Shown piece after piece: positions 2,234 through 15,441 of a stretch of DNA of 35,101 nucleotides; the first letter of the stretch is position 1; each line of letters opens with the position of its first letter. The notes beneath the pieces are model-generated. The model had not been told where the DNA came from. It saw nothing but the letters and a program-made list of their open reading frames with translations, and did not search any database. Location of the stretch: contig JAAYKH010000030.1 of NCBI GenBank assembly GCA_012522475.1, positions 86,063-121,163 of the forward strand. Reading direction: 5' to 3'. The position numbers and the translations under genes are program-made. The DNA is from Chloroflexota bacterium (GTDB lineage: Bacteria; Chloroflexota; Anaerolineae; Anaerolineales; Anaerolineaceae).

Positions 2234-3172
2234 TCAAAGGCCATTCTTAAATTGCGGGTCGTGTTCAAGGGTCAACCGAACGCCCATCTCCAGGGGTATC
2301 AGGGGGATGTAATCCAGCCCGGTCTTCGCCGAGGAGAGATCAGCACACATGCGTGTGACGCCGCCACTGATACGGGTGTTATAAACCTCTTCAGGGGCGC
2401 CACCCGTGACTTTGGTGACGATCTTAACCAGATCGCGAATGCTGGTTTCGGTGCCGCTGCCGACGTTGATGACCTGCCCATTGACACTTTGGACAGTAGC
2501 AGCAGACACCAGCGCATTGACCACATCATCCACATAGACATAATCGCGGGTCTGATTGGCGTCCCCATGTAAGACCAGGGTGCCGTTTTGCAGCGATTGG
2601 TGAATAAAATTGGGGATCACCGGTGGATTTGAAGCTGGGATATGCTGACCCGGTCCGTAAGCATTAAAAATGCGCAAGCAAACTGTTTGAATTCCGGAAA
2701 GCATGCCAATAGTGCGTACATACCACTCCGCTGAGAGTTTTGAAACCGCATAGGGTGAAACGGGATGCGGTGACAGGTCTTCCGTCATGAGTGACTGTTG
2801 CTGCTCACCATAGACCGCGCCGGAGGAGGCCAGCACAACTCGTGGTGTGCCAGCATCGCGAATAGCTTCCATGAGCGTTACCGTGCCGCCCACATTAACC
2901 TCTGTGTAATCTCGTGGAAACAGAATCGATTCCTGCACTGACACCCGCGCAGCCATGTGATAAACACAATCAATATCTTGTAAAAGCGTCCATAATTTTG
3001 GACGGTCGTTGATATCTCCGCGTGTAAAGTGAACCTCAGGATCCAGCACATCCGGATTCCCGGTGGAAAGGTCATCCAATACACGCACATGATGCCCCTG
3101 CCGCAACAATCGATTGCTGAGCGCAGCACCCAAAAAACCCGCACCGCCTGTAATTAGAAAATTCATTGTCAT
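2234..3172 (-). CDS. NAD-dependent epimerase/dehydratase (extended SDR, UDP-glucose 4-epimerase-like)
   Basis: Cytoplasmic nucleotide-sugar epimerase or dehydratase of the extended short-chain dehydrogenase family, 312 residues. The N-terminal Rossmann motif GGAGFLG (residues 9-15), the SSGAVYGE segment with the catalytic Ser/Thr position, and YAVSK with the catalytic Tyr and Lys are all seen. The NAYGPGQ segment and a YVYVDD segment later are standard for GalE/RmlB-like enzymes. Two in-frame start codons (MTM) are possible; AAGG lies 5 bases before the first and 11 before the second, so both fit. Substrate is not determinable. It lies between a phosphodiesterase and a DNA repair gene on the same strand, with no polysaccharide cluster in view. 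Confidence 0.9.
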   Translation of the reverse strand: MTMNFLITGGAGFLGAALSNRLLRQGHHVRVLDDLSTGNPDVLDPEVHFTRGDINDRPKLWTLLQDIDCVYHMAARVSVQESILFPRDYTEVNVGGTVTLMEAIRDAGTPRVVLASSGAVYGEQQQSLMTEDLSPHPVSPYAVSKLSAEWYVRTIGMLSGIQTVCLRIFNAYGPGQHIPASNPPVIPNFIHQSLQNGTLVLHGDANQTRDYVYVDDVVNALVSAATVQSVNGQVINVGSGTETSIRDLVKIVTKVTGGAPEEVYNTRISGGVTRMCADLSSAKTGLDYIPLIPLEMGVRLTLEHDPQFKNGL

Positions 3173-8399: not shown

Positions 8400-8474
8400 G
8401 GATAAAAAAACACGAAGCACTCACAAGCCAAAAGAATGCCTCTTCCGTAGAGGCAAAATTTGACTGCGGTTGTA

Positions 8475-8502
8475 TTGACAAACAAATTTGATTGTGTAAT
8501 AC
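8475..8502 (+). promoter_or_regulatory. Strong sigma-70-type promoter of a small transcription unit
   Basis: A perfect -35 TTGACA (8475-8480) is followed after 16 bases by TAATAC (8497-8502) as -10. It would drive a transcript of roughly 175 bases that ends at the terminator at 8651-8684 and contains the 19-codon ORF. Confidence 0.65.
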
Positions 8503-8569
8503 TACTGCTAACAGTCATCAAAGGTTTAGTTAAAGACACGCAATCCCACTAAAAAGGAGGTGGTGTACA

Positions 8570-8629
8570 ATGATAGACAGTAGTTACTTATCAATGGCTG
8601 TAGCACCCCTCCTTGTTAGTTTACGATAA
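8570..8629 (+). CDS. Candidate 19-residue peptide (leader peptide or small protein)
   Basis: A short ORF, MIDSSYLSMAVAPLLVSLR, begins 9 bases after a near-perfect Shine-Dalgarno sequence AGGAGG (8555-8560), which is stronger than that of most genes in this window. Its last seven codons form the 5' arm and loop of a 13-bp perfect hairpin (8596-8643), and the stop codon lies one base before the 3' arm, as in translational or transcriptional attenuators. The loop also holds CCTCCTT, able to pair with the AAGGAGG of its own ribosome binding site. I do not recognise the peptide; its central part is hydrophobic. It has no runs of one amino acid as in classical amino-acid operon leaders. Translation is inferred, not shown. 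Confidence 0.5.
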   Translation: MIDSSYLSMAVAPLLVSLR

Positions 8630-8643
8630 AGGGTGCTACAGCC
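8596..8643 (+). promoter_or_regulatory. 13-bp perfect hairpin overlapping the small ORF
   Basis: GGCTGTAGCACCC (8596-8608) is the exact reverse complement of GGGTGCTACAGCC (8631-8643), with a 22-base loop. The inner GCACCCC of the 5' arm (8603-8609) can alternatively pair with GGGGTGC (8662-8668), which spans the loop of the downstream terminator. Two downstream sites therefore compete for one upstream strand, a switch-like geometry. Confidence 0.7.
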
Positions 8644-8650
8644 CAAACAC

Positions 8651-8684
8651 AAAAGCCGCTCGGGGTGCGAGCGGCTTTTTGGTT
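8651..8684 (+). terminator. Intrinsic terminator upstream of the moe operon
   Basis: A 12-bp perfect stem AAAAGCCGCTCG / CGAGCGGCTTTT (8651-8662 and 8668-8679) with a GGGTG loop is followed by a T-rich tail. It should end the short upstream transcript before the moeA promoter. The rest of the gene-free stretch 8400-8784 holds only the small unit described here and the moeA promoter. Confidence 0.88.
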
Positions 8685-8709
8685 ATTAATAAGGCCCTAA
8701 CAGCGTTTA

Positions 8710-8738
8710 TTGCCATCTTGATTGATTGAAGATATAAT
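8710..8738 (+). promoter_or_regulatory. Promoter of the molybdenum-cofactor operon
   Basis: TTGCCA (8710-8715), a 17-base spacer and a perfect TATAAT (8733-8738) form a good sigma-70-type promoter about 46 bases before the moeA start codon. Confidence 0.7.
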
Positions 8739-14436: not shown

Positions 14437-14465
14437 TTGACAGTTACTACAAGTGCCCTTATCAT
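14437..14465 (+). promoter_or_regulatory. Promoter of tupABC
   Basis: A perfect TTGACA (14437-14442), a 17-base spacer and TATCAT (14460-14465) form a near-consensus promoter. Transcription would start near 14472, giving a leader of about 140 bases that is almost entirely base-paired. Upstream of it, 14261-14436 contains no gene or other signal that I can recognise. Confidence 0.75.
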
Positions 14466-14471
14466 AGGGCT

Positions 14472-14604
14472 TGTTCTTCGACTCGACACCCTTCGGGAAT
14501 AACCATGGGTGTACGAGCGGCAGCTTGCCGGCAAAATCCCAGCATGCCGGATAAGCTCAAGGGTTCCGCGGGAAACTGCGGTGCCTCCCGTATTAGGAAA
14601 GGAG
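14472..14604 (+). promoter_or_regulatory. Structured mRNA leader of tupA, candidate Moco/Tuco-family riboswitch
   Basis: Three hairpins are visible. First, CTCG+ACACCC (14482-14491) pairs with GGGTGT+A+CGAG (14507-14517). Second, AGCTT-G-CCGGCA (14522-14533) pairs with TGCCGG-AT-AAGCT (14545-14557). Third, CCGCGG/CTGCGG (14566-14571 and 14576-14581) closes a GAAA tetraloop. They are followed by GCCTCCCGTATTAGGAAAGGAG, in which CTCC (14585-14588) can pair with the GGAG ribosome binding site of tupA (14601-14604). The GNRA-capped stem, the GCCTCCCG element and the AAAGGAG end agree with my recollection of the Moco RNA family (Rfam RF01055), known ahead of Mo and W cofactor and transport genes. 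I infer translational control by the cofactor. The family match needs a covariance search. Confidence 0.65.
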
Positions 14605-14610
14605 AATAAG

Positions 14611-15441
14611 ATGAGAAAGTCGTTAATAATCGTTAGTACCTGTGTCATGCTGTTAGGCCTGATGGCCTGTACAGCAAAAACCCCACCAGCCCCTGAAATT
14701 GTAAACGAGGTCATCCGTCTTTCTACGACGACGTCGGTCAACGATTCAGGTTTGCTGCCCTACCTGCAACCCTACTTTGAAGAAGATACCGGCTATAAGA
14801 TGGAAGTTACTTCTGCAGGTACTGGTGCTGCCATCGAAAAGGCACGCACGGGCGATGCAGACTGCCTGCTGGTACATGCCAAGTCTTCTGAAGAAGATTT
14901 CATCGGCGAAGGCTTTGGTGAAGAACGCCTGCCCTTTATGTTCAATTACTTTGTAATTGTCGGCCCCGAAGATGACCCGGCAGGTATCAAGGACGCTGCC
15001 ACAGCGGCCGAAGCGTTCACGGCAATCGCCAACAGCGGCTCAAAATTTGTCAGCCGCGGCGATGAAAGCGGCACCCATGTCAAAGAGAAAAATATCTGGA
15101 AAGATGCCGGTATTGACCCCGCTGATGAAGATTGGTATATCAGCATCGGCGCTGGTATGGGGCAGACACTAACCGTTGCAGATGAGGAATTGGCGTACAC
15201 CCTCTCGGATAAGGCCACCTTCCTGGCGCATGATAATTCCCTCAGCCTGCTGAAGGAAGAAGCAGACGACATGAAAAATACCTATTCTTTGATTGCTATC
15301 ACGCCAGAACGATGGGAAGACACCAACTATGCGGGCGCATTAGCCTTCATTGAATGGATCACCTCACCGAAAGCGCTGGACCTGATCGATGCCTACGGCG
15401 TGGATACGTATGGTGAAGGTCTTTTCTTCTCAATCCGCTAA
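14611..15441 (+). CDS. tupA: Tungstate ABC transporter, substrate-binding lipoprotein TupA
   Basis: Membrane-anchored lipoprotein that captures tungstate for import. The signal peptide ends in a lipobox LMAC with C20 as the lipidated cysteine. TTTSVNDSGL (39-48), the TSAGTGAAIEKARTGDAD segment (67-84), LLVHAK, and the SRGDESGTH segment further on are characteristic of TupA rather than ModA or phosphate-binding proteins. I start at the ATG at 14611, 6 bases after AAAGGAG; a longer in-frame ORF reaches upstream through the structured leader and is rejected. Mature protein is about 256 residues. A strong hairpin separates it from tupB. Confidence 0.94.
   Translation: MRKSLIIVSTCVMLLGLMACTAKTPPAPEIVNEVIRLSTTTSVNDSGLLPYLQPYFEEDTGYKMEVTSAGTGAAIEKARTGDADCLLVHAKSSEEDFIGEGFGEERLPFMFNYFVIVGPEDDPAGIKDAATAAEAFTAIANSGSKFVSRGDESGTHVKEKNIWKDAGIDPADEDWYISIGAGMGQTLTVADEELAYTLSDKATFLAHDNSLSLLKEEADDMKNTYSLIAITPERWEDTNYAGALAFIEWITSPKALDLIDAYGVDTYGEGLFFSIR

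Follow-up and report, generated by a model that had tools for sequence, protein, structure and literature searches.

Leader-peptide transcription attenuators consist of a promoter, a short open reading frame (ORF) with a strong Shine-Dalgarno (SD) sequence, overlapping hairpins and a terminator. Yfr1 of cyanobacteria carries an anti-SD motif of the CUCC type and is thought to bind the SD sequences of mRNAs through this stretch. The Chloroflexota, from which the locus described here comes, have, in our judgement, seen little RNA biology so far. Yfr1 is presented as a small RNA almost universal in cyanobacteria and treated as non-coding in the portion of PMC6778093 on which we draw, which also names tmRNA, 6S RNA, 4.5S RNA and RNase P RNA as universal RNAs. 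In Helicobacter pylori the AapA mRNAs, which encode type I toxins, contain metastable hairpins that sequester the SD, and an untranslatable primary transcript is given as a hallmark of type I toxins in the sections of the source cited here (PMC6733600). The Chloroflexi-1 and pan motifs, according to the relevant part of PMC2864571, both have Rfam numbers.

The unit analysed here lies at 8475-8680 on the plus strand of the window (the whole stretch of Chloroflexota DNA under study, 35,101 nucleotides long) and combines a promoter, an SD sequence, a 19-codon mini-ORF, a hairpin and a terminator in one transcription unit. The earlier note had listed these parts, and all of them are present. The promoter (8475-8503), recognised from the sequence and at homologous loci, has a -35 box TTGACA at 8475-8480, a spacer of 17 nt and a -10 box AATACT at 8498-8503, with a TG ahead of it as in an extended -10. 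It is followed by a conserved 5' leader motif, GCAATCCCAC (8540-8549; consensus GC.ATcct in 147 family and order sequences), and by region 1, AAGGAGGTGGTGT (8554-8566), which comprises the extended SD, beginning at 8554 with AAGGAGGTGGTG, and the spacer, and which duplex and swap tests identify as the first strand of a helix A. The mini-ORF, MIDSSYLSMAVAPLLVSLR (8570-8629, 19 codons and TAA), is kept in homologues and contains near its start the sequence AGTAGT (8579-8584), for which serine codon usage points to conservation at the RNA level. Within the ORF lie the 5' arm of a second helix, B (8596-8608), and region 2, the anti-SD stretch GCACCCCTCCTT (8603-8614), which is the second strand of helix A by duplex and swap tests and shares 8603-8608 with the arm of helix B. 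Region 3 (8631-8643), the 3' arm of helix B, abuts the stop codon and forms a perfect 13-bp hairpin with the 5' arm inside the ORF, both arms being identified by folding, covariation and the swap test. An intrinsic terminator (8651-8680, stem 8651-8679), found by a terminator scan and at homologous loci, completes the unit. The positions of promoter and terminator imply an RNA of about 170 nt in the window, and in folding energy 8475-8700 lies 5.3 standard deviations below its dinucleotide shuffles, none of the 200 shuffles being as low.

Rfam 15 gave no match at the gathering score over the unit in the window (best 21.2 bits, against 80) and none over 17 homologous loci; the author of the earlier note had recognised no described family. 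A search of PubMed Central found no literature naming such an element, a result that leaves absence from print unproven; we class the unit as a probable SD-lock RNA, of a family that we have not found described in Rfam or PubMed Central. The molybdenum cofactor (Moco) riboswitch RF01055 was considered as the identity of the unit and rejected, as it has no match in 8475-8684. Elsewhere in the window, a Moco/tungsten riboswitch RF01055 match (14464-14620, 56.5 bits) runs into a gene for a PBP-like binding protein (14509-15441), overlapping its start as called.

The same layout recurs across many genomes in covariance-model searches, so that the original observation goes beyond chance. A DNA search matched 18/61 genomes, the genome of the window itself included and one, G054, through the terminator alone. 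A first covariance model built from 16 sequences (E<=0.01) found the unit in 88/147 genomes and 35/40 genera of the family, and a second, built from 88 sequences of that one family, found it in 281/400 genomes and 113/130 genera of the order (E<=0.01), 190/298 genomes and 121/186 genera of the class (E<=0.001) and 84/301 genomes and 45/178 genera of the phylum (E<=0.001). Of the 84 phylum matches, 32 fall in the class of the window and 52 outside it, the latter with E-values of just 1e-8 to 8e-4 that are rough, the model having been trained on one family. A pattern scan of GTDB contigs returned Chloroflexota throughout the at least 80 records listed, as judged from their titles or their affiliation. 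Anaerolinea thermolimosa IMO-1 carries a match, and the matching genomes are taken by us to include Chloroflexus aurantiacus, C. aggregans, Roseiflexus and Herpetosiphon. A search of eight whole genomes for AAGGAGGTGRT gave 69 occurrences, compared with 62 for the reversed control.

The earlier note had proposed that homologues scattered as a simple mobile repeat would refute its reading. We reject a mobile repeat, there being one copy of the unit in its own genome, while of the 190 matching class genomes 188 have no more than one match. No match to 8541-8680 was found by blastn in plasmids or phages. In a repeat search at E<=1 of 17 genomes lacking a match, 14 gave weak matches only and three gave none; 13 of the weak matches were inspected by eye, and two (L309 and L312) resemble diverged or shortened copies while the others do not. 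A loose pattern matched one of 16 of these genomes, unconvincingly. Some nearly complete genomes therefore seem to lack the unit. In one family, f85, the separate hairpin has apparently been lost. At L258 and L271 (unit at about 3001-3112) and at the weak match L312 the unit is shorter, with the ORF ending in the loop of the terminator itself.

Homologous units were compared in several sets. Set A2 omits L018 and L020 of the DNA search, which match only in a terminator-like part, as well as L014 and L019, which are pieces at contig edges, and set A4 was derived from the 93 matches of set A3 by removing four reverse-strand hairpin matches and L110. A further set took as input 60 of the 80 pattern-scan loci listed and nine of the 15 order-search loci L230-L244, and 60 hits were fetched from the class and phylum searches, 32 of these loci coming from outside the class. 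Sets A4, A5 and A6 together gave 217 rows and 208 unique units, of which 205 were used; the other three had no SD-plus-ORF by our rule, the start codon being farther away in L186, the ORF having nine codons in L292 and the unit being diverged in L277.

Two alternatives had been offered at the outset, a peptide-sensing attenuator of moeA and a stand-alone gene for a small RNA or peptide, and it is the second that is borne out. A promoter scoring at least 9/12 within 150 nt 5' of the SD was found at 168/195 homologous loci, compared with 28/195 in shuffled sequence and 29/195 on the opposite strand, and the distance from promoter to SD is 40-59 nt in 139 of these 168. Terminators were found at 175/203 homologous loci and in 7/203 shuffled sequences. 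In the window the unit lies between a glutaminyl-tRNA synthetase gene (Pfam domains) and moeA. A minus-strand terminator-like hairpin (8437-8455) lies between the synthetase gene and the unit. The layout of promoter, leader ORF, hairpin and terminator is that expected of a transcription attenuator acting on the next gene, here moeA, but the next predicted gene varies and is on the opposite strand at 113/195 loci (same strand at 82/195), pairing with the terminator is not conserved in the swap test, and moeA has a promoter-like site of its own at 8710-8738; we regard this explanation as hardly credible. Downstream moeA was recognised at only two (L001 and L002) of the 88 family loci. No neighbour gene is constant among the 195 loci, the largest downstream clusters being a convergent phosphofructokinase gene at 32 loci (Pfam) and a photolyase gene at 16 (named from protein sequence), where all neighbours come from a simple ORF caller whose individual calls may be wrong. 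Since the downstream gene varies in both identity and strand, the unit is not the leader of a fixed gene, and because the RNA ends at its terminator, its output should be the RNA itself, the ribosomes on it or its peptide.

At seven of 205 loci (L251, L257, L261, L263, L264, L266 and L272) the unit lies directly 5' of smpB, and at five of these (L251, L261, L263, L264 and L272) a tmRNA gene follows. This adjacency, limited to two family labels, may hint at ribosome rescue or may be synteny within a single clade.

The central conserved feature is the one first noticed in the window, where CCTCCTT (8608-8614) is complementary to, and could mask, the unit's own AAGGAGG (8554-8560), and it is borne out by duplex and swap tests. 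Helix A joins the SD and spacer to region 2 and, as read from the sequence of the window, consists of 8554-8560 with 8608-8614 and 8562-8566 with 8603-8607, T8561 being bulged; helix B joins the region 2 stretch to the segment after the stop codon. In the window the two share only 8603-8608, and because these bases are common to both, helices A and B cannot both be complete, though helix B could keep its lower half alongside helix A as a pseudoknot. Covarying stems, which had been named as a check, were found: in the 16-sequence alignment, 97.5% of the cells of helix B and the terminator are paired, with eight double-change pairs, and none of 500 shuffles scored as high. An unsupervised covariation scan over 147 sequences places pairs of the terminator or of helix B in the top nine ranks, and a helix A pair (the base before AGGAGG with the loop) comes 14th, behind two that do not represent base pairing. 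The duplex between SD and ORF is stronger than with base-shuffled ORFs, at the 5% level, in 140/146 units, as is helix B in 133/146; L085, L246, L247, L258, L271 and L278 have no significant SD:ORF duplex in this ORF-shuffle test of 146 units. Outside the class, 31 loci were testable for the helix A duplex, and 26 of them passed.

Beyond the SD itself, the spacer positions of helix A vary and remain paired, in a table built on the best duplex and thus biased towards pairing: among 205 units, position +6 is C-G in 147, A-T in 17, G-C in 11, T-G in nine, T-A in eight and unpaired in 13, and position +7 is C-G in 72, A-T in 24, G-C in 18, T-A in two and unpaired in 89. Each of the four Watson-Crick pair types is present at these two positions, which lie outside the SD, among the class and phylum units. 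A swap test compared own with between-genome partners for 15 segment pairs, relatedness being uncorrected throughout. With that qualification, SD and region 2 bind their own partners better in A4 (Z -8.8) and A5 (Z -7.7), and in A6 (60 order-level units), where both strands are nearly invariant, Z is +0.2; regions 2 and 3 bind their own partners better in all three sets (Z -11.2, -7.0 and -17.6). The terminator also shows own-genome matching, and weaker matches appeared in one set each for SD:region 3 (-3.8, A6), SD:N-terminus (-3.7) and N-terminus:region 3 (-3.4, both A5), on which we do not rely. No better own-genome match was found between region 2 and the terminator in three sets (Z -0.6, +0.7 and +3.1), the first value being blurred by L109, a locus whose contig ends early and which distorts the A4 terminator averages; the pairing of GCACCCC with GGGGTGC in the terminator loop that had been proposed for the window is local to it. 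Sequence comparison thus indicates matched changes in both helices, A and B.

These matched changes bear on whether the anti-SD stretch acts on other transcripts. The unit might encode a small RNA that acts in trans, pairing through its exposed anti-SD (CUCCUC or AUCACCUC) with the SD of other mRNAs, the mini-ORF serving only to time the exposure, and in keeping with this the unit is stand-alone, nearly always has a single match per genome, and has a conserved anti-SD stretch. However region 2 is matched to its own SD and to the 3' arm, so that a role in cis explains it, and a plain small RNA would need no kept reading frame. We hold this explanation to be possible but doubtful.

The leader motif at 8540-8549 has no matched partner among the segments in the swap test on three sets. 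A hairpin between leader and SD was considered and set aside, as there is no own-genome matching (Z -0.5, -1.6 and +0.9), and a pairing of leader with region 3 likewise (Z +3.2, +1.7 and +0.6). The conserved motif is perhaps a protein site. In Chloroflexus-like loci the leader motif is GCCGTCYAGGC-like, as opposed to the GC.ATcct of the family and order.

An ATG-initiated ORF of 15-20 codons is present at all 88 family loci, and an ORF of 11-24 codons in 205 of the 208 unique units. Its frame is kept in 83/87 family units and 59/60 units of a further set despite variable raw lengths, the exceptions being L009, L013, L015, L078 and L167, of which L013 has the region 2 codons in the usual frame and a shifted anchor. 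In 83/87 family units the distance from start to anchor is 32, 35, 38 or 41 nt, while that from SD to start ranges from 7 to 12; since the latter varies and the former changes in steps of the frame, the frame itself has been selected. These observations, and the common M-x-D-S-S type of ORF start, would also suit a gene for a functional micro-peptide whose RNA structure merely holds expression low. However the peptide sequence and the frame of region 2 differ among groups, being GCA TCA CCT (..AVASP..) in Anaerolineae loci and, in another frame, GGC ATC ACC or close variants (..GVTAGEAR) in Chloroflexus-like loci. Moreover, serine codons are AGT in 314/366 cases at positions 2-7 of the ORF compared with 17/284 later in it, and codons 2-7 also include TGT (48) and CGT (48), a bias that points to selection at the RNA level. 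A micro-peptide gene is consequently, in our judgement, improbable. The sequences suggest rather that the RNA and the act of translation are kept, and the peptide seems not to be. The stop codons of the 205 mini-ORFs are TAA in 121, TAG in 73 and TGA in 11, TAG accounting for 41/58 among the class and phylum units; since TAG is usually the least used of the three, its frequency here may have to do with RF1 or with RNA structure.

Folding predictions indicate how the two helices might alternate. In RNAs cut at the stop codon, SD:ORF pairing is predicted with P>0.5 in 86/87, 60/60 and 37/58 units of the three sets, leaving 21/58 below this level for helix A in the deepest set, and in the full RNA it is predicted in only 4/87, 1/60 and 3/58. 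The predicted unpaired fraction of the SD core rises from the stop-cut to the full RNA from 0.01 to 0.23 and from 0.00 to 0.14 in two sets, and in the deepest set the mean is the same for both RNAs (0.20 and 0.20). The full RNA thus loses its SD:ORF pairing, yet its SD core is predicted to be unpaired at only 0.14-0.23 on average.

We consider it rather probable that this stand-alone short RNA with its mini-ORF is a two-state SD lock, most likely a ribosome-gated regulator and not the leader of the next gene. As long as the RNA reaches no further than the stop codon, helix A would form and close the SD; once region 3 is present, helix B would displace helix A. Given the order in which the segments emerge during transcription, the SD is predicted to be closed first and then freed from the ORF with region 3. 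Translation would initiate mainly on the complete RNA, and every ribosome reading the ORF would open helix B. Which segments are exposed, the anti-SD-like region 2 or the SD-like regions 1 and 3, might then depend on the traffic of ribosomes, on their release at the stop codon or on trimming of the 3' end, and the RNA would most likely serve as a regulator in trans or as a reporter on translation.

A bolder version, which we think rather unlikely, makes the ribosome itself the ligand: through its extended SD and an internal mimic of the 16S rRNA tail the RNA would sense either free 30S subunits or slow termination, and in response change which of its regions are exposed. If true, this would be a class of regulatory RNA so far undescribed.

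A metastable SD lock is also what a type I toxin mRNA would possess, and sequestration of the SD by an anti-SD within the ORF, displaced later, is described for AapA3 in the part of the source cited (PMC6733600). However antisense promoter-like sites are found at 10/202 loci, compared with 15 in shuffled sequence (a promoter scan only, and a weak test). The peptides, of 12-22 amino acids, are on average not membrane-like, with mean GRAVY values of 0.39, 0.25 and -0.27, though single values range from -1.95 to 1.56. There is nearly always one match per genome across the class, and the lack of blastn matches in plasmids and phages also speaks against a toxin, an identity that we consider very improbable.

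It is uncommon for a non-ribosomal RNA to be retained as one copy per genome across an entire bacterial class. The universal RNAs are central ones, and a unit of such spread without an Rfam family is a concrete gene to test, to which the matches in cultured strains give access. The unit is apparently a case in which selection retains the act of translation and the helices and not the peptide.

Compared with the known systems, the unit resembles leader-peptide attenuators in its layout and in a short leader ORF whose kept frame (83/87 and 59/60) indirectly points to translation, but unlike them it has no constant downstream gene and no alternative between terminator and antiterminator. Like Yfr1 it is a small stand-alone RNA, but it differs in that its ORF is kept and its own SD has a matched pairing partner in cis, and it is patchier outside its class than Yfr1, with 190/298 class genomes and 52 outside-class matches among 301 phylum genomes. 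AapA, as modelled, is the nearest mechanism to the present unit: in both, on the cited part of the AapA account, the SD would be closed during transcription by an anti-SD, in one case inside the ORF, which a later and stabler structure displaces (PMC6733600). The two diverge in that full-length AapA RNA is closed and opened by 3' truncation, according to the same sections, whereas the full RNA of the present unit is predicted to be without SD:ORF pairing (PMC6733600). Unlike AapA, the present unit has no excess of antisense promoters, no membrane-like peptide on average and typically one match per genome.
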